Source of the DNA: Amphiura filiformis | Lineage: Eukaryota; Echinodermata; Ophiuroidea; Amphilepidida; Amphiuridae | Reading direction: 5' to 3' | Assembly (NCBI RefSeq): GCF_039555335.1 | Contig: NC_092631.1 | Location: 15,743,805-15,807,804, forward strand | DNA: 64,000 nt | Part shown: positions 16,018 through 64,000 of the stretch, one piece after another | How the letters are laid out: every line of letters begins with the position of its first letter | Numbering within the stretch: the stretch's first letter is position 1 | Notes under the pieces: generated by a model | What the model was told of the DNA's origin: nothing | The model's input: the letters and a program-made list of their open reading frames with translations, nothing else | Database searches by the model: none | Position numbers and translations under genes: made by a program

Positions 16018-19000
16018 ATGTCTTTCGGGTCCATTATACTAGCATGTTTAGGTGCATTTTTGCTCCTTTTGTTCTGTTTATTTTGTATGGGAGGTACTAG
16101 TATTTTAATGGCGGATTTTATCGGCGATACTGCAACCACATAACTACGACTTTACACGGAAAAACTGCTATTATCACAGGTAGGTGATGAATGCATGTGC
16201 AATCTATTGCATTAAAGGCCCTTTCAGTGATTTCACAGGAACATTAAAAAAATGGAAATTTGTCAGAGTTGCTTAGAAATAAAGAATAAGTCTACAGAAT
16301 TTCATTAAACCACTTTTCCCTGAATACATCGACAAATTAGTCAAAAACAGAAGTTTTAGAAAGGTTTTCTACTTCAACTCAGATCGACTCGAGAAAATCG
16401 AGATTTTCGTACAGTGCGCCACCAATCGACTGGAAAAACTTCCTAGTCCAGTGTTTCTAACACGGGGAAGTAGAGTCTAAATTGATTTAAAACAGACGCT
16501 TAATTTTTGTAGTAGAAAACAAAATAAGCAATTAAAGGTCACCGAGGCAAACTAACGGTCAATTCAAATATGAAAAACAGTTAAAATTGTGTATTTTGTT
16601 TAAAATAGTAGCTACTGATGTAATAAGTAGTAGAAACAATACGCAACGCGTGTTGGTACGTGGAGAGTGAGCTTCTTTCGATCTCGAGTCGGACTTTTGT
16701 ACTGTCAGTATCAAAAGTCCAGAATCATGCAAATGCTTTATTTTGTCTAAAATACACGGCTTTCGACCGAACCACTAGCAGGCTATGTTAGCACATCTAT
16801 GCCAATCGATCGTCCGGATGAGCAAATCACTGAATGGGCCGTTAAGCTTCTGATTATGACTACCGTGGAAGAGACACGTAAAGATACTTTATGTACTTCT
16901 TTTGTAACGTATTCATGAGGGATGATCATTGACCTATGAGAAGGGTGACTGGAATTACAGCACGATGGGTACGATTTATATAAGATGATAGACAATAGGC
17001 GCCATTAACGTCCATTTTTGTTCCTACATTATGTTATTTATGTATCGTAAACAGATGGAAACCCTGGGTATTCCACGGCCCAACTATCCGGCCCTGGGCA
17101 TCAGATGTAGGCCTAGATCTTTTGGTTTTAATATCGCGGCATACGGGTTCAAAATTCGGCAGGTATATTTCAATGGAGTGAGGTTTCTGAGGGTTCGTCG
17201 CTAAAGGCTGAGCTAGGGTAGATCTCGTAGCTATTATACTGCAGATCATCTAGACTATGCCATAGTCGATTTTTGATAAATAAAACCTGTCATTAATCAT
17301 GATGAAAGGATTCAGTTGAACTCGAAATTATACTGATATTTATTACATCAAAATACTAGTATAAAATTGTTATGAAAAAGTTTATATAATTATATTAGTG
17401 ACAGTAAAAGTAAAGTATACGTAGGCTTATATTATTGAATGCAACATTATCATAATTATATTGGCACTTCAATACTGAACAATTCTGATTTTAGAATCTA
17501 CCAGTTTATTAATCGCGAAAGTCCGGGTTAAAAATCGACTATGGACATTGCATTTTAAATGGGACTTTGATCGGGCAAAGTCCCTAACACACACACTGTC
17601 AATCACACTTGTTTATCAATCCAATTTAACCGCACGCACAAAGCTTGGAAGTACAAGCATGGTACAAAACGCGCTCATGCACCTACTGGGAGTTTAATGT
17701 TTAACACAAAGGCTGCATAGTTGTGTACCATGTAGTTATTAATGGTAATGTCAGGTACCCGGAGGATTTAAACCATAACGAGATATGGGCGACCAATCAC
17801 AAGCCAGATCCATTTAAAGATGCATTACATCATGGCCAATTTTAGTAGGCCAGAAATCCGACAATCTCATCCATAGACAGCCGTGTTAAGCATGCAAACT
17901 GCAATCCAAAGTCAGTAGTCCACTTGGGATGCTAACAAACAGAGGGGGTACGGTGACTGAAAAGATCAGTTGTGAAAATCTATCAATTGTGCACAAATTA
18001 ATTAAATCAGAGTTTTCAGCTTAAATGCAATATCCAGAGTATGGACAACTGGACTACGGAGTAGTCTACGGCACAGTCTACGGCACATGTTGTTGTTGCT
18101 TGCCTGCCCAGAATGCAATTCACGCATACCAAGGTATTGGATTGGGCTATTTATTCACATTTACGCTGAAAATGCTCTCGTGATTTTGGTGTGGATCATT
18201 TTAGTGACCATAACCATGTTAACAGTATGCTCCGGGAGTGGAGTATGTCAACGTGTTTCTTATCACCATGTGAAAATGCGATGTGCTAATTGATGATACG
18301 GTTACTTTTGTACACGTATCGGAAAAAAAATAAAACATCCGATATATTTTATGTTTCCAGGTGGAAATGCCGGAATTGGCAAAGAAACTGCCATTGATTT
18401 TGCACGTCGTGGAGCACGAGTCATTATTGGCTGCAGAAATCCAAAGAAGGCCACAGAGGCAGTCAAGGTAGGGAGAATTAAATTATGGCTTGCACTGCAG
18501 ACCAATGAACAGAATCAAGGCTTGTCATTGGCTGATTGACTTAAAAGGGCATTAACCCTCTCCATGCGAGCGTCGAATGCAGACGACAAGTTTCAAAATT
18601 CGCTCCAAAAATTGAGCATTGTATAAGTTTTCATGACCATATTTGGAATCAGCATTAAAATGAGCCCAGTATTAGCCTTTTCGATGTATGGCATACACAA
18701 AAGGAGGACAGTCTTCAATCTGGGTAAAACCTGGCAAATTCAACTTAACTTTACCCACTTCGTGCCGCGCCAACCTATTATGTCCGCCATATTTTCGAAA
18801 AGGCTAATTGGTTCATTGTTTCTTGAGATATTTCTTGATATTTTGAGAACTATCTCGAACTTGGGTTCTTATGTTGAAGTCTATGGCTAACAAGCGTGAA
18901 TACATCACAGGTAAATGTGACGTTTTCAGTTATATTACTTTCAACGGCGTATTTAAAATTCGTGAGCGCGCTGTAAATTTGCCGTTATGTAGCTAACATT

Positions 19001-22000
19001 ATTAACATCCACCCAACCAGCGGGATTTACGCTTATGGAGTGATATTTAGTACCAACTTTAATTTTGTAAGGCACAAACTTGTTTTCAAAAATAAAAAAC
19101 ACAGCGCTAAGAACTGTTACAACCACAACAATAAGTGTTTTCGACTACTGGGGCAATTCCAAACAAGTTCACCCAAATTGAAAATATAAACACTAGAAAA
19201 TTTTATAACGTGTATCTTCGTTAGCATTGTTTGAGTACCAATTTTACGATTAAAAGCATCATTCCGCAACGCAAAAGTATCATTTATTAGCACTGCATAC
19301 AATTTGAAAATAAGATTGATTTTCATTGAAACTAGAATAGTATAGCTGCTAGGCTGAATCGTTGTGCACTTTGAGATAAAAGCATGAGAATGTCCACACA
19401 TGAAGTACATGGTCCAAACTTTATTTTAAGATGTAGAACCATTTCAGATTTGACCCCTAGTGCATCTAGAGGTCACGAAAGGTAATACATTGGTGAAAAA
19501 TTCTTGTCAACAGATACACCAAACTATTCGTCTGGAAAGGTATTTTGCCTCATTCATGAACATTGGTTTTCTTTTCTCTATTGTTTTCATTTTGGTAATA
19601 ATTATTTTCATGTTTGTTTATTTGTCTTTTTATTGATACCAGGAAATTCAAAGACGCGCTGGAAGCAGCAATGTAGTATATTTTCCACTAGAACTCTCCG
19701 ATCAAGATTCCGTCCGTGAATTTGCCGAAACTGTTTTGAAACAAGAAACCCGAATTGATTATCTAATCAATAATGCAGGTAAATTATACACTATACACAG
19801 GTTGTAAGAAAGGAAATTACTTTTTGCATTTGTTGGAGAATGAGGGAGGCTGTAGAAGGTGCTTAGCAGGGGGGGAACTGCCCAGGAAATTTTCAGGGAT
19901 ATAATTTGGGGACGGCAAAGAGTAAAGTGTCCCTAAAATTACTAAAAGTGGGACAAAAATTTGACAAACGGGGACGAAAATGTGGCTTCCCCCTCCCCCT
20001 TACATCAAAATCCTGGCTACACTACTGGGCGGTAGGCGTGCGGTACTGTCTAATTATTAGAATTCTTCAGTTGCGGATATTGTTCTAATGAAATGGTTAT
20101 GTTTTACTTTTGTGTAGGTATCACCAAATCAGCCAAGGGTCAGCGCACCAAAGAAGGCTATGATATGGTTTTTGCTGTGAATTACTTTGGACATTTCCTA
20201 CTTACTATGTTATTATTGGACAGACTCAAAGCAAGCGCACCTAGTCGTATTGTTAATGTCTCATCCATTATGCATGCTTTCGTGAAGCAAGGAGATATAT
20301 ATTTTACGCCAAAAGACGCAGAAGGTAAGAATGTTAACCTGGATTTACCAGATCCACGGGACCCGCGGGAGCGAAGTATAAATTACATCATCGTAGAATT
20401 CGACTTCAACTTAAAAATGACTTCAGCCCTACCCTGACCACACTGGTCACTGAGTTACCTTGCGCCGGTTCATTGTTTGCTGCAGTGAGACCCAAGTGGG
20501 CCTTATGGTGAACATTCAAATACATAGGCGGGGGAACAGGGTACGTATTGCTTTATTTTTCTTCTATTAGGATTTTAGTGGGCACGTCTCCAATGCAATT
20601 TTTTATGGGGGACCTGTACCTTTCACCACCAACATGACCAAATAGCTTTCATTTTTGACTAAAGTATCCGGAATTTGCGCGCAAATATCTCAGTAATTCG
20701 GTACAGACTTTTATGCTCGTCACCCAAAACTTTTAATGCTTCAGCCGCCACTGTTTAAATAGACACGTGGTTTGCTCCTTTATTATATCAACTTTATACA
20801 TGAAAACAATAATGCGATTTTTATACAGTCTGCCAAAGGACTATTGCAAATATATTTGGGAGAGTGAATGTTGGGTTGCAACATTGTTAACTCATTGTCC
20901 AGTGCGAAATTAAGGTCAGCAACTATTTTAGACCGTTGCGATTATATAGTTCACAGCATCTTGTGAATGGTAGTGAGCTTTGGTAAATATTGCATTGATC
21001 ATTTCATTACGAGTGTGTAGAAGAATTAAAATATCACAGATATACTTTTGTAGGTCCTGTGGTTCTTAAGTTATGTTGTAAAGAGGGCTGAAACAACAAC
21101 ACTTTTGTCAAACGTAAATACCTCATTAAAGGTCCGTAACCCGATCGACAACATCATCCCCCCGATTTTTGTCATTGTTAATGAGTTTTTGGTATCACAA
21201 AATAGATCGTATTTTTCTTATTCCTATTCTGAAATTTGACGCTCCAAGTCGATGTATTTCCGGAGAAATCGGAGAATTCATGCCAATATACCTCCCTTGG
21301 TGGCTTCCAATTTCTGGAATTCTAGACAGATAATTATAGTCTCCTCAACAGCTAGTTTGGTTTCGCGTCATTCACATTGTATGAAAAGAGCGAACCGCAA
21401 TAACTGCTGAAGAGACTTCAGATCGATGATGTTACTATAAAGCTTTAAAAATTCCTTCCGAAATTTGAAGCTGCCCGCGTGGCGCAGTTGGTTAGAGCGT
21501 CGTATTTTTGTACCAGAGGTCCCCAGTTCAAATCCAAAACCAATAGGGTTACCCCCCTTTAACAACAATAAATCAAGCAAGTTTTCAAAGTATATGATTT
21601 GTAGAATAAACTTTTGCAAAACATCAAAGTGTTATTTTTAATGTTATATTGATTTAGATAACGAAAATACCTCGTCTACCCTTAAATATCTATTTCCCAA
21701 TGACCTTTTTATTGCACTTTCACTATCATTATGCATTGTCGTATATTGCATCTACTTTTCAACATGAGCACATAAATAACTAAATCCTATTAATACTTGA
21801 GAATAATAAGATCATATATTTTCACCATATTATGGCAGGTCGAATATACCCCGGTCTACGTGAGTACGACATAAGTAAACTGGCAAACGTATTATTTACC
21901 AAAGAACTTGCGCGGCAACTTGAAGGGTCTTGTGTCACTACATATTCATTACACCCAGGCGCTGTAATGTCTAGTATTGTTGCGACAATGAAGGAGGCTA

Positions 22001-22880: not shown

Positions 22881-23250
22881 AAGGGGCTGTGCAATAGTTA
22901 TGAGCCCCCAGCCAAATATCGCTTGCCCTCCTCTCGGCCTGCCAAAAATCGCTTGCCCTCCCTCTCGGTCCGCCAAAAAATCTTTGCCCCCCCTTTACAC
23001 ATGCCAAATTTTTGAGATCCCAATTTTCAAACTTTAAATGGTCTAGATATATGTTGCGAGCGCAGCGAGCAGCAAAATTTGCATATTAAAGCGTTTCTGT
23101 TCTGTTTTCCTAAGCCTTTTTAGAACGTTATATTGAAAAGGCGCCTTATAAATGTGTGCCAAAAATCGCTTGCCCCCCTCTCGGCTCGCCAAAAATTTCT
23201 TTCCCCCAATTTTACCCTCCCTAGGGCTCATAATTATTGCACAGTCCCTT
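22881..23250. mobile_element. MITE with GGGGCTGTGCAATA ends
   Basis: The ends are AAGGGGCTGTGCAATAGTTA and TAATTATTGCACAGTCCCTT, continuing into GAGCCC/GGGCTC. The flanks repeat ATT (left 'ttatt', right 'attga'), consistent with a 3-bp target duplication. The interior repeats the words 'aatcgcttgcc' and 'ctctcgg' and carries 'gcgagcgcagcgagc'. A truncated relative with one intact end lies at 49890-50088. Confidence 0.8.
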
Positions 23251-23274
23251 ATTGATGCATCGATATGTGTTATT

Positions 23275-23772
23275 AATGAACTATTGACTAATTAATGAAC
23301 TATTGACTAATTAATGAACTATTGACTAATTAATGAACTATTGACTAATTTATGAACTATTGACTAATTAATGAACTATTGACTAATTTATGAACTATTG
23401 ACTAATTAATGAACTATTGACTAATTAATGAACTATTGACTAATTAATGAACTATTGAATAATTAATGAACTATTGACTAATTAATGAACTATTGACTAA
23501 TTAATGAACTATTGACTAATTAATGAACTATTGACTAATTAATGAACTATTGACTAATTATTGAAATATTGACCAATTAATGAACTATTGACTAATTAAT
23601 GAACTATTGACTAATCAATGAACTATTGACTAATTTATGAACTATTGAATAATCAATGAACTATTGACTAATTTATGAACTATTGACTAATTTGTGAACT
23701 AGTGACTAATTTATGAACTATTGACTAATTTGTGAACTAGTGACTAATTTATGAACTATTGACTAATTAATG
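23275..23772. repeat. 19-bp minisatellite, about 26 copies
   Basis: The unit is ATGAACTATTGACTAATTA, with few variants (TTTATGAAC, AATCAATG, GTGAACTAGTG towards the 3' end). It abuts the right arm of the TTAA-flanked inverted repeat. Variants cluster at the 3' end, as expected if the array grew from its middle or 5' part. Confidence 0.97.
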
Positions 23773-25135
23773 TTATTTTGCCAATACATTACGAACAAAG
23801 ATTATATGTTTTCAAAATTTTAAAGGGGGGTAACCCTATCGGTTTAGGATATGGATTCTCTTCAAACTTACAATGTCAAATATTGTCCCCTTTATCCATC
23901 TATGTGAGAAAACGGGAACAATTTCAGCATAAATGTGAATAATTAGCATATTAGCAAGCCAATACACTGGTACGCGTGCATTGCATTCTGGTCAGGCATC
24001 CCGAAACAACGGCCGAGTGCATGTCCCGGTGGAAACAGGAAGTGTTCGCCTTGGCACTGAAAACCGGCTCGCCCCTGTTCACTTTTATACCCTCTATTCA
24101 TACTGATTAATCTTAAAAAACATTACATATCACTGCGCTCATTATCATTCTTGACAAGATAGCCCATGTTATATTTACTTCGCTTAATTATTTCTTTATT
24201 TTTAGCAATATCATCCACATTTTCACATATTTATGATTTTTCTTTATTTTATTTTTTAACTAATTTTTTAATAGGGGGAGGTGCTCTCATATTTTTTTTC
24301 ATATTCCTCGTATCATGCTTGACAATATAGGTCATGTTTCCTTATTTATTTCGCCTCTTATGTATTTCTTTATTTTTGTTTTTGTTTAATATCATTATAG
24401 CGCCATCTATAGTTTTTGATGTAATATGTATTTTTGCGGACGAATTGGTACTGGGGTGAAGTCTTCCGAATCTATTCCGATTTCATTCTATGACTACCCA
24501 AAACTCCCGTGTCGTGTAAAATGCGGCCAACTGGTACCCTGTAACAAGGTGTTTTTTTCAAGATTTCTTCGGAAACACAACGATTTGAAGCGTCAAATTG
24601 CAGGATGGTAATGAGAAAAATACGATTCATTTTATTATATCAAAAACTCATCAACAATGAGAAAAATCGGGGGGATGATGCTGTTGATCGGGTTACGGAC
24701 CTTTAATTGATATTTCTTTATGATGAACAGGATAATTTATTGATGATATGGATGGACCAGCGCAAGCATTGTTAGTCAATCGACAGATTGATATCAGTTC
24801 CATTGCCCACAAAGAATAGGCGATACCACATACATCTATTGCCCACAATGTACCACAAAACGTAAACCTTTCTCGAATTATGTCATGATGTTGTATTATC
24901 ATCGATACATAAATAAAGATGGTTTTAATGGAAATCTGTATTTTTATACAGATTTTTACTTTGCTTACCCTGAGGTAAATACAAAGTTGTACTCAAGGGG
25001 CACAGGCATATGTACCTCTTTGAGGATGGGGCACTTTCACCCCATGTTTTCTCTGCGGCGGACTTACCCTGAACTGGAAGCGGACTTGCCTCATCCGCGT
25101 ATTATGCAACATATTGATAATAAAAAAAAATAAAA

Positions 25136-26089: not shown

Positions 26090-27223
26090 TTTCAAACTCC
26101 TGGGCTCGCCAATATTATACAGAAATCCTGGGTTCAACCCCCGGGTTCAACCGTCTCTAAAATCTACTCTCTAAATTCTCATTGAAACTACTTACTTCGG
26201 TCATGTCTTAATAACTATGAAGACAAAACAGTCAGTTTTTATTGGTTGGGGTGCGTGTCACAGTGTCAACACCCTGTATTATACATATTTTTTCCATACA
26301 GGTCCACCTGGAACTTAAGGTTGGTCTGAACCCTGGAATTATGGAAACTTTCGGGCCTCATAACTTCTAAATTGTTGGTCTAAAGTATATATAAGTATAC
26401 ATATTTAGAATGGTAAAGACTTGATAAGTTCATCTGTGAGGTCAAATTTGGGCCATTTTTGGCCCAAAATCCCCAAAATAACGGTTTTGGCCCACTTCTT
26501 CTTCGTGCACCGTAACAAAAAAATTCTTGGGCCAAATTTTTTTTTTTTTAATTTTTAAAAACTAGATCAAAATATCTAAGACCCGTTTTTTCATTTTTTT
26601 GAATTTTGACCAATTTCACCAAAAATATTTGAAATTTGGGCCAATGATTTTTTTGAAAAATCAGCAGTTTTTGACAATTTTTGGTGCAAATTTCTCAAAG
26701 TTGGTCGAAATTAAAAAAAAATGAAAAAACGGGTCCTAGATATTTTGATCTAGTTTTTAAAGATTAATAAAAAAAAAATTTTGGCCCAAGAATTTGTTTG
26801 TTACGGTGTATGAAAAAGAAGTGGGCCAAAAACCGTTATTTTTGGAATTTTGGGCCAAAAATGGCATTTTGGCCCAAATTTGACCTCACAGATGAACTTA
26901 TCAATTCTTTGCCATTCTAAATATATATACTTTTATATACTTTAGACCAACAATTTAGAAGTTATGAGGCCCGAAAGTTTCCATAATTCCAGGGTTCAGA
27001 CCAACCTTAAGTTCCAGGTGGACCTGTATGGAAAAAATATGTATAATACAGGGTGTTGACACTGTGACACGCACCCCAACCAATAAAAACTGACTGTTTT
27101 GTCTTCATAGTTATTAAGACATGACCGAAGTAAGTAGTTTCAATGAGAATTTAGAGAGTAGATTTTAGAGACGGTTGAACCCAGGATTTCTAGTATAATA
27201 TTGGCGAGCCCAGGAGTTTGAAA
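26090..27223. mobile_element. Near-perfect 1.13-kb hairpin element
   Basis: The outer tips are TTTCAAACTCCTGGGCTCGC and its complement. The arms (about 560 bp each) match almost base for base through CAACACCCTGTATTATACAT and GGTCCACCTGGAACTTAAGG to a centre near 26655, where TGATTTTTTTGAAAAATCA is itself a palindrome. The left arm has a 13-bp internal doubling (GGGTTCAACC twice). A further copy of a 50-bp arm segment follows the right tip (27223-27273). There is no ORF of note. A transcript would fold into long double-stranded RNA. Confidence 0.93.
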
Positions 27224-27874: not shown

Positions 27875-30800
27875 ATGTCTTTCGGGTTCATAATATGCTT
27901 ATATGCATTCTTCATCCTTGTTGTGTTAGCCATCTTGTATTTGAGGTACAAACTTAATGGCGGATTTTATCGGCGATATTGTGACCACATAACTACGACT
28001 TTACATGGAAAAACTGCTATTATCACAGGTAGGTGAATTTATACAGTGATCAGTTTGTGATAGTTACTGCGTGAGACAATAAAGTCTCAACTTTAATACG
28101 CCAGCGTAAATTTTGAACAGTGCGTGTCAGTCACGCAATATAGAAAAGCATATAGCTCTCGTAAGTGCTGCGTCAGCTGTGCGTATGTCATTCTCTATCA
28201 AATCACAATGTTATTACACCAGGGACAAGTGATTTGCGCGGAACCTTTTTTTCCGCGCAATTGGCTATTTTTTTCCTATGGGCAGGGATACATGATTTGC
28301 ACTGAAAAAAGGTTCCGCGCAATTTCCTATTTTTTCTCGCAAATCGCCTGTCCCTGCATTAGTCTCGTCCATTGCGAGTATTGCATTTCTCCTGCTGATC
28401 ACACTATAAGAATTAGAGCTAAGCTCGGCCCTTAAAGCCATTGCCTTTAGCGATAATCATTGACAAAATTAATGAGCCTGAATGCGTCCCTAAACTCTGA
28501 TCAATAACGATTTTGCCTACCTCTACCTCCAACTAAGGTTGATGCTATAAAATATTTTTCTTATTTTAGGAGGAAATGCTGGAATTGGCAAAGAAACTGC
28601 CATTGACTTTGCACGTCGTGGAGCACGAGTTATTATTGGCTGCAGAAATCCAAAGAAAGCCACAGAGGCAGTCAAGGTAGGGATAATCAAGTGTGCATGG
28701 GTTGCTCATAATTAGATGGGATGCTTTTCAGTTTTATGAAGTGCTATTATTTGGATAATAGTAATAACTAGATTTCGCGGTTCTCGGGTTGGGCGGTTCT
28801 CGTGATAGGCCTATCTCTAATTACCCAACGCCCGTTACCTATAATACTTGTCCTGACCTTTCAAACTACTATACGATTATGTCTCTCAATGATTAAGACA
28901 CAACTATCGACTCTGTTTTGTAGCTGTGACGCTTACTTCGGAACCTATTTAATCTGAAAACCCATCGTTCGCCTCTTCCAAACCCTGTCCTGCAACCACA
29001 TCGGAGGACCCAAAAATACCCCGAAATTTTAGTAGTGTCTGGATGTAGGCCGTCAATTCAATCGGGAGAAATGTGAACGCAAACGGGTATGTTAATCATG
29101 TCTTTAAAATAGGCCTATTGGTCCGATGAGATCCACCTGTTAGTCACTGTAATGCTTTCCGATGCTCGCATTGCGCCCGTCGGTACTCCGCAGCACTACG
29201 CGATAGCGCACCGCGCACACGCGATACGCACCGCGCGCTCGCGTTATACGCACCGCGAGCACGCGTTAGCGAGCCACTCGCACGCGATAGCGCGCGGACA
29301 GAGGACGGACACGCCATAATTAGTATTAAGATAATACTAATACTAATTATAATAGTAATACTTATTATAATACTAATACTAATTATAATACTAATTATAA
29401 TACTAATACTAATTATAATACTAATACTAATTATAATACTAATACTAATTATAATACTAATACTAAAACTAATTATAATACAAATACTATACTAATTATA
29501 ATACTAATACTAATACTAATTAAATGTGAACATGTTTTTTTTTCTTTTTGTCATTTTTGTAATAACTTTTTTATGTTTATTGGCATTTTATTCAGGAAAT
29601 TCGAAGACGCTCTAGAAGCAGCAATGTAGTATATATTCCACTAGAACTTTCTGATCAAGATTCCGTCCGAGAATTTGCCAACACTATATTGAGCCAAGAA
29701 TCAAGAATTGATTATCTAATCAATAATGCAGGTAATATTATATTAACAAAATACAGGTTGTATCTAATCGCGCGGTTTGTCGGCATGCCTGTGGTTCAAC
29801 AGCGTAAAAGTGGCGTCGCTGCCAAACTCGAGTTGAAACATATTGTAAAAAGTGGCTTGCTGTTTTTGGAATCATGCTGAATAATTTGGGTGAGCTGGTG
29901 CGCTAATCCAAGTGCTGGCCCTGTAGCGCTTTTATCCATTGATGCCAAACGTAGTAGCGTCAATCCCAAAGTGCGATTGCTACGACCATAATGATGTCAA
30001 ATGTGATATTTTCATATGTCATGTGCATTAAGACATTATTTCTCTATTTGCGCTACTAATGTTGGAGGAATCCTTCAGTTAACGGGCAGCATTGTTCCAA
30101 TGAAATGTCAATGTTTTACTTTATTTATAGGTATCGGCGAAGCAGCAAAGGGTCACGTCAACAAAGAAGGCTATAATATGGTTTTTGCTGTGAATCACTT
30201 GGGACACTTTCTGCTCACAATGTTATTATTGAACAGACTTAAAGAAAGCGCACCTAGTCGTATTATTAATGTCTCATCCATTGGCCATACTATGGCGAAA
30301 GAAGGAGATCTACCTTTTACGCAAAAAGGCGAAGAAGGTAAGCATGTCTGCCTGAATTGATCAGATCCACTCGTCCGCGGGAGCAAAACACGTGATCCTG
30401 CATAAAGTTTGAAATAATTATGTGTATGCAAGGGATAAGATGAGACAGAGAGAATGGAAGGCACTACATCCGGATCCTAGAGCTCTTCTTAAACAGCTTT
30501 TGGGCTATTATGGCTTGCGCTATTCCCAAAACCCATGTCTTACCGACGTGTTACTGCTAACTTGTGTAGTGTGCAGAATTCCACGAGTTTCTCATAACTG
30601 CTGTTGATATTGCCCATGCCGTACATGCCTCTGGGTGGTGCCAAGAAACTGTGGTCCGTCCCTAATTTGTAATCCGACCGTCCCTAAATGTGGCTCGTCC
30701 CTAATTTGCCGTCGAGGTCTCCCAGAACAATGAGGCTCTGTGTATTAACAGACCCTGAAAGGAATTACTAGTGTCATATTATTCAAACTAATTTAGCAAT

Positions 30801-50088: not shown

Positions 50089-50250
50089 ATTAGGCGGAGG
50101 CGCCGTGGATATTTAATTATTTTCTTTGATTTCCACCCGCCTTACCCCCGGGCCTTTAGGCGGGCCTTTAGGCCCCTATACCCGGGTGGAAAATCAAAGA
50201 AAATAATTAAATATCCAAAACAACGCTAAACTACGGCGCCTCCGCCTAAT
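50089..50250. mobile_element. Fold-back MITE, 162 bp, GC-rich tips
   Basis: ATTAGGCGGAGGCGCCGT at the left and ACGGCGCCTCCGCCTAAT at the right. The arms continue with GATATTTAATTATTTTCTTT and CCACCCG. It directly abuts the truncated MITE before it. Confidence 0.92.
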
Positions 50251-50439: not shown

Positions 50440-50515
50440 AAAACAAACTTACTTTTTTGTATTTTCACGTGTATTTCAATGAGACGTTTATTTAGTGGTG
50501 TGCACCCACAGGCTT
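50440..50515 (-). repeat. Diverged inverted copy of the B-module left end
   Basis: Read on the minus strand: GGGTGCACACCACTAAATAA, then CATTGAAATACACGTG. Compare the B module's GGGCGCACACCACTAAATAA, CATTGAAACACGTGT. Only the terminal 60 bp or so match. It shows that the B tip exists outside the array, in an older copy. Confidence 0.75.
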
Positions 50516-50761
50516 GGGTGACAGGCTAGAGATAGCGGAGCACGGACATTAATTTTTACGAGAAAGAAACAGCATTCAGTTAAATTAACACACTTAAATT
50601 AGCAGTAGGCCTAATTGGAGAATCTACTGGAGGTGACGGTAGTATGCGAGTATGAAATCGTCTCAAACAACTGTAACGCAGTGAGTATTAACGTAAGCAC
50701 AGCCTCTGTCATGATCAGGCGCGTACGCAGGAATTTATCAAAAAGGGGAGTGTGATGATAA

Positions 50762-53700
50762 GGGCGCACACCACTAAATAATCTTCCCATTGAAACACGT
50801 GTAAAAACACCGGTTTTCTTTGCTCATTTTGAGGCCTTTTGGGCTCGTTTTAAAATAATTTATGATGACCAGTCGATTGCAAATCGATGCAAGTTTAACA
50901 TATGTTTCAATGTATGGGGTCCTTCCACCTCGTTTTCCCGCTACGAGGCCGCGAACAGCGCCCTCACTGTTTTTGACATGCTCTCAAGACTGCAAACCCG
51001 ATTCTGCCATTTTTTAATTCGCGGACCTATTTTCTCAATAATTATACAAAAGCGACTTTTTTTTTTTTTTATATTTATGTATAGGCTTTACACTTTTATT
51101 TGAGCTATAATTCGCCACTCTTTCTGATTAATATGTCTAAAGACCAGCCCAAAATACCTCAAAAGTTTCTGTATTTTACCGGAACTCATTAGGGTTACAC
51201 AAATGGCGCATTGATTTAGTGGTGTGCCCCCTTCAAGAAATTATGGTGTTCATAAAATCGAATTTTGTTATATTTTTCTTGAAATATAAAATGTTTTGAG
51301 TAAAACACTCAAGGTTTGAGTGCTCTGTGACATCCACATCAAGAGAAATGTCCTATCAAAGATACATGTTGCATTCCAAAAATGTGCACATTTTCAACAT
51401 TTTGACCATTTGTGCTTATTTCCCTAGATTTGCATTAAATACCAAATCTCAACATATAGTTTTTGACCGTTTATCTGCTAAAAACCGCTTTAAAATGAAA
51501 AGAAATTAGGTTTCATAATGGCAAAGGTCTATATATTAATGATTTTGCAACAATCACCCCCCTTATAAAATAATTAACATTTGAGAGGTTTAAAGACGTG
51601 TGCCGATTTGTCACCTTAAGACAATTTTGCTTCAAATCTGAGAAATCTTAGTTTTCTCACAATTTTTGACAGTTTCTTTAACTTTGAAGGCCTCTGAGAG
51701 AATAACCTTAGCGCGACTTGCATCTAAAACGCATTAAATATATTCACTAACATAAAAACTATCTATTTAAATCAAAAAACCGCAATTTAATCGAAAGCCA
51801 ACTTCAATTTTGGGCTAAATCTCTCAGGAGCACGATTTTACACCTAGGCCCGAAATTATGGTGTTCATAAAATCGAATTTTGTTATATTTTTCTTGAAAT
51901 ATAAAATGTTTTGAGTAAAACACTCAAGGTTTGAGTGCTCTGTGACATCCACATCAAGAGAAATGTCCTATCAAAGATACATGTTGCATTCCAAAAATGT
52001 GCACATTTTCAACATTTTGACCATTTGTGCTTATTTCCCTAGATTTGCATTAAATACCAAATCTCAACATATAGTTTTAGACCGTTTATCTGCTAAAAAC
52101 CGCTTTAAAATGAAAAGAAATTAGGTTTCATAATGGCAAAGGTCTATATATTAATGATTTTGCAACAATCACCCCCCCCTTATAAAATAATTAACATTTG
52201 AGAGGTTTAAAGACGTGTGCCGATTTGTCACCTTAAGACAATTTTGCTTCAAATCTGAGAAATCTTAGTTTTCTCACAATTTTTGACAGTTTCTTTAACT
52301 TTGAAGGCCTCTGAGAGAATAACCTTAGCGCGACTTGCATCTAAAACGCATTAAATATATTCACTAACATAAAAACTATCTATTTAAATCAAAAAACCGC
52401 AATTTAATCGAAAGCCAACTTCAATTTTGGGCTAAATCTCTCAGGAGCACGATTTTACACCTAGGCCCTTCGAAGGGCGCACACCACTAAATAATCTTCC
52501 CATTGAAACACGTGTAAAAACACCGGTTTTCTTTGCTCATTTTGAGGCCTTTTGGGCTCGTTTTAAAATAATTTATGATGACCAGTCGATTGCAAATCGA
52601 TGCAAGTTTAACATATGTTTCAATGTATGGGGGTCCTTCCACCTCGTTTTCCCGCTACGAGGCCGCGAACAGCGCCCTCACTGTTTTTGACATGCTCTCA
52701 AGACTGCAAACCCGATTCTGCCATTTTTTAATTCGCGGACCTATTTTCTCAATAATTATACAAAAGCGACTTTTTTGGCGACTCAAATTTATGTATAGGC
52801 TTTACACTTTTATTTAAGCTATAATTCGCCACTCTTTCTGATTAATAAGTCTAAAGACCAGCCCAAAATACCTCAAAAAGTTTCTGTATTTTACCGGAAC
52901 TCATTAGGGTTACATAAATGGCGCATTGATTTAGTGGTGTGCCCCTTTCAAGAAATTATGGTGTTCATAAAATCGAATTTTGTTATATTTTTCTTGAAAT
53001 ATAAAATGTTTTGAGTAAAACACTCAAGGTTTGAGTGCTCTGTGACATCCACATCAAGAGAAATGTCCTATCAAAGATACATGTTGCATTCCAAAAATGT
53101 GCACATTTTCAACATTTTGACCATTTGTGCTTATTTCCCTAGATTTGCATTAAATACCAAATCTCAACATATAGTTTTTGACCGTTTATCTGCTAAAAAC
53201 CGCTTTAAAATGAAAAGAAATTAGGTTTCATAATGGCAAAGGTCTATATATTAATGATTTTGCAACAATCACCCCCCTTATAAAATAATTAACATTTGAG
53301 AGGTTTAAAGACGTGTGCCGATTTGTCACCTTAAGACAATTTTGCTTCAAATCTGAGAAATCTTAGTTTTCTCACAATTTTTGACAGTTTCTTTAACTTT
53401 GAAGGCCTCTGAGAGAATAACCTTAGCGCGACTTGCATCTAAAACGCATTAAATATATTCACTAACATAAAAACTATCTATTTAAATCAAAAAACCGCAA
53501 TTTAATCGAAAGCCAACTTCAATTTTGGGCTAAATCTCTCAGGAGCACGATTTTACACCTAGGCCCTTCGAAGGGCGCACACCACTAAATAATCTTCCCA
53601 TTGAAACACGTGTAAAAACACCGGTTTTCTTTGCTCATTTTGAGGCCTTTTGGGCTCGTTTTAAAATAATTTATGATGACCAGTCGATTGCAAATCGATG

Positions 53701-56700
53701 CAAGTTTAACATATGTTTCAATGTGTGGGGTCCTTCCACCTCGTTTTCCCGCTACGAGGCCGCGAACAGCGCCCTCACTGTTTTTGACATGCTCTCAAGA
53801 CTGCAAACCCGATTCTGCCATTTTTTAATTCGCGGACCTATTTTCTCAATAATTATACAAAAGCGACTTTTTTTGCGTCTCAAATTTATGTATAGGCTTT
53901 ACACTTTTATTTGAGCTATAATTCGCCACTCTTTCTGATTAATAAGTCTAAAGACCAGCCCAAAATACCTCAAAAAGTTTCTGTATTTTACCGGAACTCA
54001 TTAGGGTTACACAAATGGCGCATTGATTTAGTGGTGTGCCCCTTCAAGAAATTATGGTGTTCATAAAATCGAATTTTGTTATATTTTTCTTGAAATATAA
54101 AATGTTTTGAGTAAAACACTCAAGGTTTGAGTGCTCTGTGACATCCACATCAAGAGAAATGTCCTATCAAAGATACATGTTGCATTCCAAAAATGTGCAC
54201 ATTTTCAACATTTTGACCATTTGTGCTTATTTCCCTAGATTTGCATTAAATACCAAATCTCAACATATAGTTTTTGACCGTTTATCTGCTAAAAACCGCT
54301 TTAAAATGAAAAGAAATTAGGTTTCATAATGGCAAAGGTCTATATATTAATGATTTTGCAACAATCACCCCCCTTATAAAATAATTAACATTTGAGAGGT
54401 TTAAAGACGTGTGCCGATTTGTCACCTTAAGACAATTTTGCTTCAAATCTGAGAAATCTTAGTTTTCTCACAATTTTTGACAGTTTCTTTAACTTTGAAG
54501 GCCTCTGAGAGAATAACCTTAGCGCGACTTGCATCTAAAACGCATTAAATATATTCACTAACATAAAAACTATCTATTTAAATCAAAAAACCGCAATTTA
54601 ATCGAAAGCCAACTTCAATTTTGGGCTAAATCTCTCAGGAGCACGATTTTACACCTAGGCCCTTCGAAGGGCGCACACCACTAAATAATCTTCCCATTGA
54701 AACACGTGTAAAAACACCGGTTTTCTTTGCTCATTTTGAGGCCTTTTGGGCTCGTTTTAAAATAATTTATGATGACCAGTCGATTGCAAATCGATGCAAG
54801 TTTAACATATGTTTCAATGTATGGGGGTCCTTCCACCTCGTTTTCCCGCTACGAGGCCGCGAACAGCGCCCTCACTGTTTTTGACATATGCTCTCAAGAC
54901 TGCAAACCCGATTCTGCCATTTTTTAATTCGCGGACCTATTTTCTCAATAATTATACAAAAGCGACTTTTTTGGCGACTCAAATTTATGTATAGGCTTTA
55001 CACTTTTATTTGAGCTACAATTCGCCACTCTTTCTGATTAATAAGTCTAAAGACCAGCCCAAAATACCTCAAAAAGTTTCTGTATTTTACCGGAACTCAT
55101 TAGGGTTACACAAATGGCGCATTGATTTAGTGGTGTGCCTCCTTCAAGAAATTATGATGTTCATAAAATCGAATTTTGTTATATTTTTCTTGAAATATAA
55201 AATGTTTTGAGTAAAACACTCAAGGTTTGAGTGCTCTGTGACATCCACATCAAGAGAAATGTCCTATCAAAGATACATGTTGCATTCCAAAAATGTGCAC
55301 ATTTTCAACATTTTGACCATTTGTGCTTATTTCCCTAGATTTGCATTAAATACCAAATCTCAACATATAGTTTTTGACCGTTTATCTGCTAAAAACCGCT
55401 TTAAAATGAAAAGAAATTAGGTTTCATAATGGCAAAGGTCTATATATTAATGATTTTGCAACAATCACCCCCCCTTATAAAATAATTAACATTTGAGAGG
55501 TTTAAAGACGTGTGCCGATTTGTCACCTTAAGACAATTTTGCTTCAAATCTGAGAAATCTTAGTTTTCTCACAATTTTTGACAGTTTCTTTAACTTTGAA
55601 GGCCTCTGAGAGAATAACCTTAGCGCGACTTGCATCTAAAACGCATTAAATATATTCACTAACATAAAAACTATCTATTTAAATCAAAAAACCGCAATTT
55701 AATCGAAAGCCAACTTCAATTTTGGGCTAAATCTCTCAGGAGCACGATTTTACACCTAGGCCCTTCGAAGGGCGCACACCACTAAATAATCTTCCCATTG
55801 AAACACGTGTAAAAACACCGGTTTTCTTTGCTCATTTTGAGGCCTTTTGGGCTCGTTTTAAAATAATTTATGATGACCAGTCGATTGCAAATCGATGCAA
55901 GTTTAACATATGTTTCAATGTATGGGGTCCTTCCACCTCGTTTTCCCTTCTACGAGGCCGCGAACAGCGCCCTCACTGTTTTTGACATGCTCTCAAGACT
56001 GCAAACCCGATTCTGCCATTTTTTAATTCGCGGACCTATTTTCTCAATAATTATACAAAAGCGACTTTTTTGGCGACTCAAATTTATGTATAGGCTTTAC
56101 ACTTTTATTTAAGCTATAATTCGCCACTCTTTCTGATTAATAAGTCTAAAGACCAGCCCAAAATACCTCAAAAAGTTTCTGTATTTTACCGGAACTCATT
56201 AGGGTTACACAAATGGCGCATTGATTTAGTGGTGTGCCCCTTCAAGAAATTATGGTGTTCATAAAATCGAATTTTGTTATATTTTTCTTGAAATATAAAA
56301 TGTTTTGAGTAAAACACTCAAGGTTTGAGTGCTCTGTGACATCCACATCAAGAGAAATGTCCTATCAAAGATACATGTTGCATTCCAAAAATGTGCACAT
56401 TTTCAACATTTTGACCATTTGTGCTTATTTCCCTAGATTTGCATTAAATACCAAATCTCAACATATAGTTTTTGACCGTTTATCTGCTAAAAACCGCTTT
56501 AAAATGAAAAGAAATTAGGTTTCATAATGGCAAAGGTCTATATATTAATGATTTTGCAACAATCACCCCCCCCCCTTATAAAATAATTAACATTTGAGAG
56601 GTTTAAAGACGTGTGCCGATTTGTCACCTTAAGACAATTTTGCTTCAAATCTGAGAAATCTTAGTTTTCTCACAATTTTGACAGTTTCTTTAACTTTGAA

Positions 56701-59700
56701 GGCCTCTGAGAGAATAACCTTAGCGCGACTTGCATCTAAAACGCATTAAATATATTCACTAACATAAAAACTATCTATTTAAATCAAAAAACCGCAATTT
56801 AATCGAAAGCCAACTTCAATTTTGGGCTAAATCTCTCAGGAGCACGATTTTACACCTAGGCCCTTCAAGAAATTATGGTGTTCATAAAATCGAATTTTGT
56901 TATATTTTTCTTGAAATATAAAATGTTTTGAGTAAAACACTCAAGGTTTGAGTGCTCTGTGACATCCACATCAAGAGAAATGTCCTATCAAAGATACATG
57001 TTGCATTCCAAAAATGTGCACATTTTCAACATTTTGACCATTTGTGCTTATTTCCCTAGATTTGCATTAAATACCAAATCTCAACATATAGTTTTTGACC
57101 GTTTATCTGCTAAAAACCGCTTTAAAATGAAAAGAAATTAGGTTTCATAATGGCAAAGGTCTATATATTAATGATTTTGCAACAATCACCCCCCCCCCTT
57201 ACAAAATAATTAACATTTGAGAGGTTTAAAGACGTGTGCCGATTTGTCACCTTAAGACAATTTTGCTTCAAATCTGAGAAATCTTAGTTTTCTCACAATT
57301 TTTGACAGTTTCTTTAACTTTGAAGGCCTCTGAGAGAATAACCTTAGCGCGACTTGCATCTAAAACGCATTAAATATATTCACTAACATAAAACTATCTA
57401 TTTAAATCAAAAAACCGCAATTTAATCGAAAGCCAACTTCAATTTTGGGCTAAATCTCTCAGGAGCACGATTTTACACCTAGGCCCTTCGAAGGGCGCAC
57501 ACCACTAAATAATCTTCCCATTGAAACACGTGTAAAAACACCGGTTTTCTTTGCTCATTTTGAGGCCTTTTGGGCTCGTTTTAAAATAATTTATGATGAC
57601 CAGTCGATTGCAAATCGATGCAAGTTTAACATATGTTTCAATGTATGGGGGTCCTTCCACCTCGTTTTCCCGCTACGAGGCCGCGAACAGCGCCCTCACT
57701 GTTTTTGACATGCTCTCAAGACTGCAAACCCGATTCTGCCATTTTTTAATTCGCGGACCTATTTTCTCAATAATTATACAAAAGCGACTTTTTTGTCGAC
57801 TCAAATTTATGTATAGGCTTTACACTTTTATTTAAGCTATAATTCGCCACTCTTTCTGATTAATAAGTCTAAAGACCAGCCCAAAATACCTCAAAAAGTT
57901 TCTGTATTTTACCGGAACTCATTAGGGTTACACAAATGGCGCATTGATTTAGTGGTGTGCCCCTTCAAGAAATTATGGTGTTCATAAAATCGAATTTTGT
58001 TATATTTTTCTTGAAATATAAAATGTTTTGAGTAAAACACTCAAGGTTTGAGTGCTCTGTGACATCCACATCAAGAGAAATGTCCTATCAAAGATACATG
58101 TTGCATTCCAAAAAATGTGCACATTTTCAACATTTTGACCATTTGTGCTTATTTCCCTAGATTTGCATTAAATACCAAATCTCAACATATAGTTTTTGAC
58201 CGTTTATCTGCTAAAAACCGCTTTAAAATGAAAAGAAATTAGGTTTCATAATGGCAAAGGTCTATATATTAATGATTTTGCAACAATCACCCCCCTTATA
58301 AAATAATTAACATTTGAGAGGTTTAAAGACGTGTGCCGATTTGTCACCTTAAGACAATTTTGCTTCAAATCTGAGAAATCTTAGTTTTCTCACAATTTTT
58401 GACAGTTTCTTTAACTTTGAAGGCCTCTGAGAGAATAACCTTAGCGCGACTTGCATCTAAAACGCATTAAATATATTCACTAACATAAAACTATCTATTT
58501 AAATCAAAAAACCGCAATTTAATCGAAAGCCAACTTCAATTTTGGGCTAAATCTCTCAGGAGCACGATTTTACACCTAGGCCCTTCGAAGGGCGCACACC
58601 ACTAAATAATCTTCCCATTGAAACACGTGTAAAAACACCGGTTTTCTTTGCTCATTTTGAGGCCTTTTGGGCTCGTTTTAAAATAATTTATGATGACCAG
58701 TCGATTGCAAATCGATGCAAGTTTAACATATGTTTCAATGTATGGGGGTCCTTCCACCTCGTTTTCCCGCTACGAGGCCGCGAACAGCGCCCTCACTGTT
58801 TTTGACATATGCTCTCAAGACTGCAAACCCGATTCTGCCATTTTTTAATTCGCGGACCTATTTTCTCAATAATTATACAAAAGCGACTTTTTTGGCGACT
58901 CAAATTTATGTATAGGCTTTACACTTTTATTTGAGCTACAATTCGCCACTCTTTCTGATTAATAAGTCTAAAGACCAGCCCAAAATACCTCAAAAAGTTT
59001 CTGTATTTTACCGGAACTCATTAGGGTTACACAAATGGCGCATTGATTTAGTGGTGTGCCCCCTTCAAGAAATTATGGTGTTCATAAAATCGAATTTTGT
59101 TATATTTTTCTTGAAATATAAAATGTTTTGAGTAAAACACTCAAGGTTTGAGTGCTCTGTGACATCCACATCAAGAGAAATGTCCTATCAAAGATACATG
59201 TTGCATTCCAAAAAATGTGCACATTTTCAACATTTTGACCATTTGTGCTTATTTCCCTAGATTTGCATTAAATACCAAATCTCAACATATAGTTTTTGAC
59301 CGTTTATCTGCCAAAAACCGCTTTAAAATGAAAAGAAATTAGGTTTCATAATGGCAAAGGTCTATATATTAATGATTTTGCAACAATCACCCCCCCTTAT
59401 AAAATAATTAACATTTGAGAGGTTTAAAGACGTGTGCCGATTTGTCACCTTAAGACAATTTTGCTTCAAATCTGAGAAATCTTAGTTTTCTCACAATTTT
59501 GACAGTTTCTTTAACTTTGAAGGCCTCTGAGAGAATAACCTTAGCGCGACTTGCATCTAAAACGCATTAAATATATTCACTAACATAAAACTATCTATTT
59601 AAATCAAAAAACCGCAATTTAATCGAAAGCCAACTTCAATTTTGGGCTAAATCTCTCAGGAGCACGATTTTACACCTAGGCCCTTCGAAGGGCGCACACC

Positions 59701-62700
59701 ACTAAATAATCTTCCCATTGAAACACGTGTAAAAACACCGGTTTCTTTGCTCATTTTGAGGCCTTTTGGGCTCGTTTTAAAATAATTTATGATGACCAGT
59801 CGATTGCAAATCGATGCAAGTTTAACATATGTTTCAATGTATGGGGTCCTTCCACCTCGTTTTCCCGCTACGAGGCCGCGAACAGCGCCCTCACTGTTTT
59901 TGACATGCTCTCAAGACTGCAAACCCGATTCTGCCATTTTTAATTCGCGGACCTATTTTCTCAATAATTATACAAAAGCGACTTTTTTTTTTTTTTTAAG
60001 TTATGTATAGGCTTTACACTTTTATTTAAGCTATAATTCGCCACTCTTTCTGATTAATAAGTCTAAAGACCAGCCCAAAATACCTCAAAAAGTTTCTGTA
60101 TTTTACCGGAACTCATTAGGGTTACACAAATGGCGCATTGATTTAGTGGTGTGCCCCCTTCAAGAAATTATGGTGTTCATAAAATCGAATTTTGTTATAT
60201 TTTTCTTGAAATATAAAATGTTTTGAGTAAAACACTCAAGGTTTGAGTGCTCTGTGACATCCACATCAAGAGAAATGTCCTATCAAAGATACATGTTGCA
60301 TTCCAAAAATGTGCACATTTTCAACATTTTGACCATTTGTGCTTATTTCCCTAGATTTGCATTAAATACCAAATCTCAACATATAGTTTTTGACCGTTTA
60401 TCTGCTAAAAACCGCTTTAAAATGAAAAGAAATTAGGTTTCATAATGGCAAAGGTCTATATATTAATGATTTTGCAACAATCACCCCCCCCCCTATAAAA
60501 TAATTAACATTTGAGAGGTTTAAAGACGTGTGCCGATTTGTCACCTTAAGACAATTTTGCTTCAAATCTGAGAAATCTTAGTTTTCTCACAATTTTTTAC
60601 AGTTTCTTTAACTTTGAAGGCCTCTGAGAGAATAACCTTAGCGCGACTTGCATCTAAAACGCATTAAATATATTCACTAACATAAAAACTATCTATTTAA
60701 ATCAAAAAACCGCAATTTAATCGAAAGCCAACTTCAATTTTGGGCTAAATCTCTCAGGAGCACGATTTTACACCTAGGCCCTTCAAGAAATTATGGTGTT
60801 CATAAAATCGAATTTTGTTATATTTTTCTTGAAATATAAAATGTTTTGAGTAAAACACTCAAGGTTTGAGTGCTCTGTGACATCCACATCAAGAGAAATG
60901 TCCTATCAAAGATACATGTTGCATTCCAAAAATGTGCACATTTTCAACATTTTGACCATTTGTGCTTATTTCCCTAGATTTGCATTAAATACCAAATCTC
61001 AACATATAGTTTTTGACCGTTTATCTGCTAAAAACCGCTTTAAAATGAAAAGAAATTAGGTTTCATAATGGCAAAGGTCTATATATTAATGATTTTGCAA
61101 CAATCACACCCCCCCTTATAAAATAATTAACATTTGAGAGGTTTAAAGACGTGTGCCGATTTGTCACCTTAAGACAATTTTGCTTCAAATCTGAGAAATC
61201 TTAGTTTTCTCACAATTTTTGACAGTTTCTTTAACTTTGAAGGCCTCTGAGAGAATAACCTTAGCGCGACTTGCATCTAAAACGCATTAAATATATTCAC
61301 TAACATAAAAACTATCTATTTAAATCAAAAAACCGCAATTTAATCGAAAGCCAACTTCAATTTTGGGCTAAATCTCTCAGGAGCACGATTTTACACCTAG
61401 GCCCTTCGAAGGGCGCACACCACTAAATAATCTTCCCATTGAAACACGTGTAAAAACACCGGTTTTCTTTGCTCATTTTGAGGCCTTTTGGGCTCGTTTT
61501 AAAATAATTTATGATGACCAGTCGATTGCAAATCGATGCAAGTTTAACATATGTTTCAATGTATGGGGTCCTTCCACCTCGTTTTCCCGCTACGAGGCCG
61601 CGAACAGCGCCCTCACTGTTTTTGACATGCTCTCAAGACTGCAAACCCGATTCTGCCATTTTTTAATTCGCGGACCTATTTTCTCAATAATTATACAAAA
61701 GCGACTTTTTTGGCGACTCAATTTTATGTATAGGCTTTACACTTTTATTTAAGCTATAATTCGCCACTCTTTCTGATTAATAAGTCTAAAGACCAGCCCA
61801 AAATACCTCAAAAAGTTTCTGTATTTTACCGGAACTCATTAGGGTTACACAAATGGCGCATTGATTTAGTGGTGTGCCCCTTCAAGAAATTATGGTGTTC
61901 ATAAAATCGAATTTTGTTATATTTTTCTTGAAATATAAAATGTTTTGAGTAAAACACTCAAGGTTTGAGTGCTCTGTGACATCCACATCAAGAGAAATGT
62001 CCTATCAAAGATACATGTTGCATTCCAAAAATGTGCACATTTTCAACATTTTGACCATTTGTGCTTATTTCCCTAGATTTGCATTAAATACCAAATCTCA
62101 ACATATAGTTTTTGACCGTTTATCTGCTAAAAACCGCTTTAAAATGAAAAGAAATTAGGTTTCATAATGGCAAAGGTCTATATATTAATGATTTTGCAAC
62201 AATCACCCCCCTTATAAAATAATTAACATTTGAGAGGTTTAAAGACGTGTGCCGATTTGTCACCTTAAGACAATTTTGCTTCAAATCTGAGAAATCTTAG
62301 TTTTCTCACAATTTTTGACAGTTTCTTTAACTTTGAAGGCCTCTGAGAGAATAACCTTAGCGCGACTTGCATCTAAAACGCATTAAATATATTCACTAAC
62401 ATAAAAACTATCTATTTAAATCAAAAAACCGCAATTTAATCGAAAGCCAACTTCAATTTTGGGCTAAATCTCTCAGGAGCACGATTTTACACCTAGGCCC
62501 TTCAAGAAATTATGGTGTTCATAAAATCGAATTTTGTTATATTTTTCTTGAAATATAAAATGTTTTGAGTAAAACACTCAAGGTTTGAGTGCTCTGTGAC
62601 ATCCACATCAAGAGAAATGTCCTATCAAAGATACATGTTGCATTCCAAAAATGTGCACATTTTCAACATTTTGACCATTTGTGCTTATTTCCCTAGATTT

Positions 62701-63576
62701 GCATTAAATACCAAATCTCAACATATAGTTTTTGACCGTTTATCTGCTAAAAACCGCTTTAAAATGAAAAGAAATTAGGTTTCATAATGGCAAAGGTCTA
62801 TATATTAATGATTTTGCAACAATCACACCCCCCCTTATAAAATAATTAACATTTGAGAGGTTTAAAGACGTGTGCCGATTTGTCACCTTAAGACAATTTT
62901 GCTTCAAATCTGAGAAATCTTAGTTTTCTCACAATTTTTGACAGTTTCTTTAACTTTGAAGGCCTCTGAGAGAATAACCTTAGCGCGACTTGCATCTAAA
63001 ACGCATTAAATATATTCACTAACATAAAACTATCTATTTAAATCAAAAAACCGCAATTTAATCGAAAGCCAACTTCAATTTTGGGCTAAATCTCTCAGGA
63101 GCACGATTTTACACCTAGGCCCTTCGAAGGGCGCACACCACTAAATAATCTTCCCATTGAAACACGTGTAAAAACACCGGTTTTCTTTGCTCATTTTGAG
63201 GCCTTTTGGGCTCGTTTTAAAATAATTTATGATGACCAGTCGATTGCAAATCGATGCAAGTTTAACATATGTTTCAATGTATGGGGGTCCTTCCACCTCG
63301 TTTTCCCGCTACGAGGCCGCGAACAGCGCCCTCACTGTTTTTGACATGCTCTCAAGACTGCAAACCCGATTCTGCCATTTTTAATTCGCGGACCTATTTT
63401 CTCAATAATTATACAAAAGCGACTTTTTTGGCTACTCAAATTTATGTATAGGCTTTACACTTTTATTTGAGCTATAATTCGCCACTCTTTCTGATTAATA
63501 AGTCTAAAGACCAGCCCAAAATACCGGAACTCATTAGGGTTACACAAATGGCGCATTGATTTAGTGGTGTGCCCCC
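50762..63576. repeat. 12.8-kb two-module array (10 B, 13 A), unassigned
   Basis: B copies: 50762-51231, 52475-52945, 53573-54042, 54669-55142, 55770-56240, 57493-57963, 58590-59063, 59690-60158, 61411-61880, 63129-63576. A copies: 51232-51851, 51852-52468, 52946-53566, 54043-54662, 55143-55763, 56241-56863, 56864-57486, 57964-58583, 59064-59683, 60159-60781, 60782-61404, 61881-62500, 62501-63122. B has inverted tips, GGGCGCACACCACTAAAT and ATTTAGTGGTGTGCCCC. A has no inverted tips; it carries a hairpin (CACTCAAGGTTTGAGTG). Copies differ at few sites, mostly C or A run lengths. The array starts and stops at B tips and is flanked by ATAA on both sides (50758-50761, 63577-63580). Repeated 60- to 80-residue frames (MTSTSREMSYQRYML, MMTSRLQIDASL) are by-products: they resemble nothing known and shift between copies. 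Confidence 0.95.
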
Positions 63577-64000
63577 ATAAACAATACTAAAATAAAGAAA
63601 TGGCCGCGTAGCGGTATCCCGTCGCGCTTCCGCGACGCAGGGAGGTGTCTGAGGGGGGATGTGCCCCCCTGAGAATTAAGAAACTTTTGGGAAATGAAGA
63701 CCTAATTGAAGCGATTTTTTGGTGGACAATTTTGGCACTATTAGGCTAATGAAAGTCGATTCAAAGTTTCCCGTTACCCTACTCCGCGCAAAACAAATTG
63801 CTGGCCAAATATTTCATTATTTTGAATAAACGTTGATTTCTAACAAACTTTTTAATATGCAAATAAATAATTGTGTTTTTAAATATATCATAAATCTCTT
63901 TCTGTTGATTTTCAGGGATTTTTTTTGCAGTAGGAGCATGGTATATCATGCCTGGAAAAAGTGGGGAACTTGGGAACCATGTTCCCAGGAAATTTTGCTA
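63577..64000. other. Right flank of the array, repeat-derived
   Basis: It contains 'ggccgcgtagcggtatcccg', 'gcgcttccgcgacgcaggg' and 'gggatgtgcccccctgag', the style of an interspersed repeat. The left flank ('caggcgcgtacgcaggaat', 50717) looks like the start of a similar repeat, so the array may have landed inside one. No exon seen. Confidence 0.45.

Follow-up and report, generated by a model that had tools for sequence, protein, structure and literature searches.

The borders of classical satellite DNA are usually not tied to transposon tips, a rule that is not strictly defining. Linked transposons in direct orientation were reportedly the subject of work by Huang and Dooner in 2008. Macrotransposition, in which two transposon copies are mobilised through their outer ends as a single transposon, together with the DNA between them, was named for maize Ac/Ds and has been proposed for P-element MITEs in Anopheles (PMC4270019, PMC1562414); the target duplications are given as 8 bp for both Ac/Ds (PMC3744419) and P (PMC1562414). 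MITEs are joined with tandem arrays in Xstir/Xmix and miDNA4 of Xenopus, which include composite MITE-plus-array forms and in which, as the reviews describe them, the array lies inside the MITE or an internal sequence of the MITE becomes the repeat (PMC12628747, PMC9659126). Tetris/TIR-220 of Drosophila virilis is described as a DNA transposon whose tandem repeats grew into satellite arrays; Tetris shares its TIR ends with a MITE, and its repeats are enclosed by the inverted ends of a single foldback element (PMC4079207). The Cg_HINE Helentrons of oyster, mobile elements that spread satellite-like arrays, are described with subterminal inverted repeats and a 3' palindrome (PMC7492417), and Helitrons are stated to make no target duplication (PMC9659126). 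Reversed-ends transposition of Ac generates tandem direct duplications that end exactly at transposon tips, reported as two-copy duplications with one breakpoint devoid of an element (PMC3744419). A survey of satellite junctions in molluscs describes abrupt transitions, with the junctions of only one satellite mapping non-randomly (PMC5139131).

The array described here resides in a stretch of 64,000 bases without N from Amphiura filiformis (the window), where it occupies positions 50762 to 63576 (12,815 bp), exactly the coordinates given to it by a first-pass annotation (Table 1). It consists of ten B units of 448–474 bp and 13 A units of about 620 bp, nearly identical copies that all share one orientation. 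From left to right, the units run B AA B A B A B A B AA B A B A B AA B AA B. The array opens with the first base of B1 and closes with the last base of B10, the left end reading GATGATAA and then GGGCGCACACC from 50762, and the right end reading GTGTGCCCCC up to 63576 and then ATAAACA. Both borders coincide with B tips, which sets the array apart from the usual borders of classical satellite DNA, and the first-pass description of an array that begins and ends exactly at B tips and is flanked by ATAA is accurate, the contact being flush on both sides. The same annotation had seen no partial A outside the array, and this holds within the window, where the only A-like sequence beyond the array is one weak 21-bp match (E 0.066, with a limit of 0.1).

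Table 1. Positions of the array, its units, and the associated features in the window.
Feature	Position	Strand	Remark
Whole B...B block	50762..63576	+	12,815 bp
Diverged B-family tip and subterminal region (GGGTGCACACCACTAAAT...)	50458..50507	-	84% over 50 bp to B left end
ATAA, left copy of candidate 4-bp target duplication	50758..50761		
B1	50762..51231	+	
A1-A2 doublet (with TTCGAA before B2)	51232..52474	+	A1/A2 junction 51851/51852 without TTCAA
B2	52475..52945	+	
A3	52946..53572	+	
B3	53573..54042	+	
A4	54043..54668	+	
B4	54669..55139	+	AT insertion and C351 in common with B7
A5	55140..55769	+	
B5	55770..56240	+	
A6-A7 doublet	56241..57492	+	
B6	57493..57963	+	
A8	57964..58589	+	
B7	58590..59063	+	
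A9	59064..59689	+	
B8	59690..60158	+	T-run variant, like B1
A10-A11 doublet	60159..61410	+	
B9	61411..61880	+	
A12-A13 doublet	61881..63128	+	C-tract of A13 identical to A11
B10	63129..63576	+	private 23-bp deletion
ATAA, right copy of candidate 4-bp target duplication	63577..63580		

Compared with the macrotransposons of Ac/Ds and P, the cargo here is a tandem array that holds ten copies of the end element, the transposase is one that we infer, and the candidate duplication is 4 bp instead of 8 bp. In contrast to Xstir/Xmix and miDNA4, a complete MITE-like unit is found at both ends and is also repeated within the array, and the B copies are direct, unlike the inverted ends that enclose the Tetris repeats. 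The terminal inverted tips and the candidate duplication differ from the Cg_HINE structure, and these two features speak against a Helitron or Helentron; the presence of B at both outer borders differs from the Ac reversed-ends duplications. The TRIM-like resemblance once proposed for B, as for an LTR element, finds no support: B begins with GGG and ends with CCC instead of TG...CA. What is distinctive is the double role of the mobile element, which forms part of the repeat unit and also marks the border of the array on either side. Both macrotransposition and MITEs that carry satellite arrays are already in print, and the array is an unusual combination of known processes and not a new element type; the undescribed type that had been entertained for it is not needed.

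Judged from its sequence, B is best read as a MITE-like, non-autonomous DNA transposon lodged in A, a tandem repeat of about 620 bp. It is short, as MITEs are, and its tips are inverted repeats of 17–18 bp (GGGSGCACACCACTAAAT). The 18-bp left tip is identical in all ten copies, and the right tip, when inverted, matches 17 of the 18 left-tip bases in B1, B7, B8, and B10; in the remaining six copies the final C run is shorter or altered and the right tip falls out of register. The left tip of B1 and the right tip of B10 form an inverted pair, and the border copies are suitably oriented outward for the two ends of a macrotransposon. Two listed ORFs of 126 aa span A and B in the array, and the one of the two that was scanned had no Pfam match. 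Several superfamilies (Sola, Academ, Zator, and others) were weighed as possible assignments for B, and none was retained.

The relationship between the two units can be read from their junctions, of which there are nine A-B, nine B-A, four A-A, and no B-B. The units do not simply alternate, as had been thought, and A-A doublets fill four of the nine gaps between B copies. When unit orders were shuffled with the same unit numbers, B-B was absent from 0.1% of them, a figure that serves as a guide only, as neighbours in an array are not independent. With no B-B and four A-A junctions, B is more likely to be the insert and A the tandem repeat.

All nine A/B junctions read CTAGGCCCTTCGAA followed by GGGCGC, i.e., CCCTTCGAA followed by GGG, and all nine B/A junctions read GTGTGC, a C run, and TTCAAGAAATT, with variants of the C run and of a T in some copies. 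Three of the four A/A junctions read GGCCC-TTCAAGAAATT, and the fourth, between A1 and A2, reads GGCCC-GAAATT and lacks exactly TTCAA. Passage from A through B into the next A reads TTCGAA, B, TTCAAG, and the three A/A junctions carry a single TTCAAG; TTC(G)AA flanks each internal B on both sides, and between two A units it is present once or absent. The A/A junction appears to resemble the B-free form of the site in which B resides, and the pattern is as would be left by insertion of B into tandem A with a duplication of 3–6 bp. It fits equally well with deletion of B between CCCTTC repeats, which could have left the same junctions, and the A/A junction would then not be the original site. 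The extra GAA at the A/B junction is unexplained. The CCCTTC-GAAGGG palindrome at the A/B junction was considered as a hairpin-type excision footprint and set aside as speculation. Overall, B behaves like an insert within tandem A, the direction being one that we infer, and a view of B purely as the terminal direct repeats of a B-A-B element is at odds with the four A-A junctions, the lack of B-B, and the B-free appearance of the A/A site.

ATAA is flush with both outer tips and is the only match of at least 4 bp when the ends are shifted by up to 4 bp in either direction. When two places were drawn at random from the first 50,400 bases of the window, a flush 4-bp match arose at a rate of about 0.005, rising to 0.04 and 0.10 with one and two bases of slack at each end; the observed match requires no slack, and it could still be coincidence, especially when the slack in the C run is allowed for. 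Neither B1 nor B10 has a duplication of its own of at least 4 bp within the same shifts of up to 4 bp, the flush flanks being ATAA and TTCA for B1 and CGAA and ATAA for B10. None of the eight internal copies is flanked by a flush 4-bp duplication; with shifts of up to four bases, six of them show a 6-bp CCCTTC match and the other two a 5-bp match (CCCTT in B2 and CCTTC in B4), all of which overlap the C run of B itself, so that they do not fix the length of any duplication made by B. The flush ATAA is thus confined to the outer pair, a single case of a duplication around a whole block to which the range from 0.005 to 0.04–0.10 applies. Since the outer copies lack duplications of their own and ATAA surrounds the entire block, the flanks treat the block as one insert. 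The earlier proposal of a B-A-B-type insertion with a 4-bp target duplication is supported in this respect, the outer ends and the ATAA pair fitting one insertion bounded by B, but finds no support in casting B as pure terminal direct repeats.

The same flanks bear on another history, in which two B copies inserted independently in the same orientation around one A, non-allelic homologous recombination (NAHR) followed, and the ATAA pair arose by chance. Ordinary events would suffice for such a history, and exchange between transposon copies is discussed as a first step toward satellites (PMC12628747, PMC4079207); however, each outer B should then carry its own duplication, which neither does, the ATAA pair becomes a coincidence at the 0.005 level, and the A-A junctions are left unexplained. 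We regard it as improbable.

With a probability of roughly 0.55, we favor a reading, drawn from sequence features, in which B is a MITE-like element in tandem A, and the outer tips of two direct B copies moved the block into ATAA as a macrotransposon. At the start, B would sit inside the tandem A repeat. A transposase from another source would pair the left tip of one B with the right tip of a later B in the same orientation, and the stretch between the paired tips would move as a macrotransposon into ATAA, which would be duplicated, while the A sequence beyond the outer tips would stay behind at the donor. Unequal exchange, before or after the jump, would set the copy number and the mixture of A and A-A spacers. 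Macrotransposition of this kind would account for the exact B-tip borders, the duplication around the whole block and not around a single outer B, and the lack of A outside, and the exact B-tip borders suggest that the whole block jumped in as one unit. It had been argued that A should remain outside the outermost B copies if a MITE had landed in an A satellite; this is true of a satellite that stays in place, but when the outer tips of two B copies move a block, the outside A is left behind.

The near-identity of the units indicates that the array is young or homogenised. Pairwise substitutions average 0.0010 per site among A units (gaps not counted; computed without the C tract and the start of the unit) and 0.0039 per site among B units without the T run, or 0.0117 with it (gaps not counted), and unit identity exceeds 99% outside the T run. 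The T run lies at B alignment columns 306–318 in B1 and B8, where most of the other copies read TGGCGACTCA, and B3, B6, B9, and B10 each carry one or two changes, from G to T or from A to T, at or beside this stretch; such variants are possibly sequencing or polishing errors after a homopolymer. The high identity and the accumulation of variants just after the T run in these six copies (B1, B3, B6, B8, B9, and B10) are what a partial assembly artefact might produce, in which near-identical units were collapsed or expanded and copy number or order is wrong. Unit-specific variants and the irregular A and A-A spacing differ among copies, however, and the array borders are independent of copy number; we consider an artefact very improbable.

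B4 and B7, three B units apart, have zero substitutions between them and a 2-bp insertion in common, and B6, B8, and B9 have no mutual substitutions outside the T run at other spacings. An unusual C tract is common to A11 and A13, and the second members of the four doublets have a tract that is interrupted or at least eight C long, whereas each of the five single A units has six or seven C, and the first members are mixed. Lag-3 similarity of the B units gives a permutation p of 0.03, and a post hoc three-class grouping likewise gives 0.03, with labels chosen after looking; support for a higher-order period of three B units is weak. The variant pattern fits block-wise unequal exchange and, perhaps, a single origin for the doublet.

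These hints of block exchange, namely the B4/B7 identity with its 2-bp insertion and the two p values, would also be expected if a small composite B-A-B (or B-A-A-B) had inserted at ATAA and then expanded there through unequal exchange, which is the model of the first-pass annotation with B taken to be a MITE. Growth in place between direct B copies necessarily leaves B at both ends, and it draws on the same B-tip borders and ATAA flanks as macrotransposition of a block. The A-A doublets demand an extra step, such as loss of B through the CCCTTC repeats, and make that model somewhat less simple; the higher-order signal on which it could draw is faint and post hoc, with B6, B8, and B9 substitution-free at spacings other than three, and exchange preceding the jump would give the same look. 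Growth of a small composite in place is a possible history, if a doubtful one. The high homogeneity and head-to-tail order would also suit integration, via the B tips, of an extrachromosomal (A-B)n circle or rolling-circle product, and Bari1 clusters are a reported case of an anomalous rolling-circle origin (PMC9659126). A circle integrated by homology or end joining would, however, enter in random phase, and the exact tips would still demand a transposase step. This route appears very improbable.

A further B-type tip is present at the left of the array, 254 bp outside it and in the orientation opposite to that of the array B copies, and was not mentioned in the first-pass annotation. It matches the B left end with an E value of 7.5e-9, with the tip sequence followed by about 30 bp similar to the left subterminal region of B; further-in similarity to B is absent, and no partner end was found in the window. 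Of dispersed copies sharing the B tips, the window shows this single diverged one beyond the array. A search of the window for the 14-bp tip core with up to three mismatches returned 26 matches, of which 21 are exact (20 in the array and one at 50490); the five inexact ones, each with three mismatches, are no evidence, as about 7.6 matches are expected by chance. The separate diverged tip implies that the B tip belongs to a family of two members or more, as a MITE would lead one to expect, and may be read as a second, older member of that family. The foldback-like arms at the left flank, 50471–50507 and 50762–50798, are two facing B-type tips, which we do not read as a foldback element.

Searches in viral, prokaryote, phage, and plasmid collections yielded no homologue. 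A scan for the tip pattern found two stretches in IMG/VR and six in GTDB contigs, and when the whole window was compared with these eight loci by blastn, the tip matches among the best 40 rows were at most 23 bp and were judged to be chance, as was one unrelated 26-bp match (88%) elsewhere in the window. Core-pattern scans of IMG/VR found six stretches for the B core and one for the A core. Blastn of B-A-A-B against all 15 loci gave matches of 17–20 bp only among those listed (at most 20), with none listed for L009, L013, and L014. With B and with A-A as queries against phages, and with B-A-A against plasmids, blastn returned nothing at E 1e-5. Across all of these collections, the listed matches to the array or the diverged tip were short chance matches of at most 23 bp. 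No Rfam match to the whole window reached the gathering scores. The tip sequence was not found in the full text of papers, and a word search for satellite arrays bounded by a MITE with target duplications found none, a narrow search that does not show absence from print.

The remainder of the window contains several other repeats. A foldback-like element at 26140–27185 has arms of 316 nt that are 98% complementary and 414 nt apart, and its inverted ends appear to reach into GAAATCCTGGGTTCAACC. A 19-bp tandem repeat array occupies 23158–23898, and a short palindromic MITE-like repeat with perfect 27-bp arms and 58 nt in between is located at 50106–50217. Nested inverted repeat pairs at 6242–7580 and 10404–13324, the main ones 90–97% complementary, include one ORF on both strands (7151–7531 plus and 10602–11024 minus). 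Direct repeats at 18347–20357 and 28556–30370, about 10 kb apart, include a short-chain dehydrogenase exon and are likely a tandem gene duplication. The longest listed stop-to-stop ORF in the window has 140 codons. Among the five ORFs scanned against Pfam, DUF4817 (helix-turn-helix) scored above the cut-off and adh_short and Aldo_ket_red just below their curated cut-offs, and no match was found for the array ORF or for ORF 7151–7531. Together with the short ORF lengths, these domains point to exons of a eukaryote, probably an invertebrate.

How satellite arrays reach new places is an open question, and the array described here carries a border signature that can be read, comprising the exact tips of an element that also belongs to the repeat unit, together with a flush duplication that encloses the block in its entirety. 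Since every unit that contains B has complete tips, a legal transposon would be formed by any stretch that runs between two B copies, and an array of this kind might act as a self-propagating satellite vehicle, seeding arrays of varied length across the genome; we consider this wider role unlikely, and raise it tentatively. If it were true, new arrays would each begin and end at B and have their own 4-bp duplication. If confirmed, the signature would allow the transposition of whole arrays to be tested directly, an option that borders at arbitrary monomer positions do not offer.
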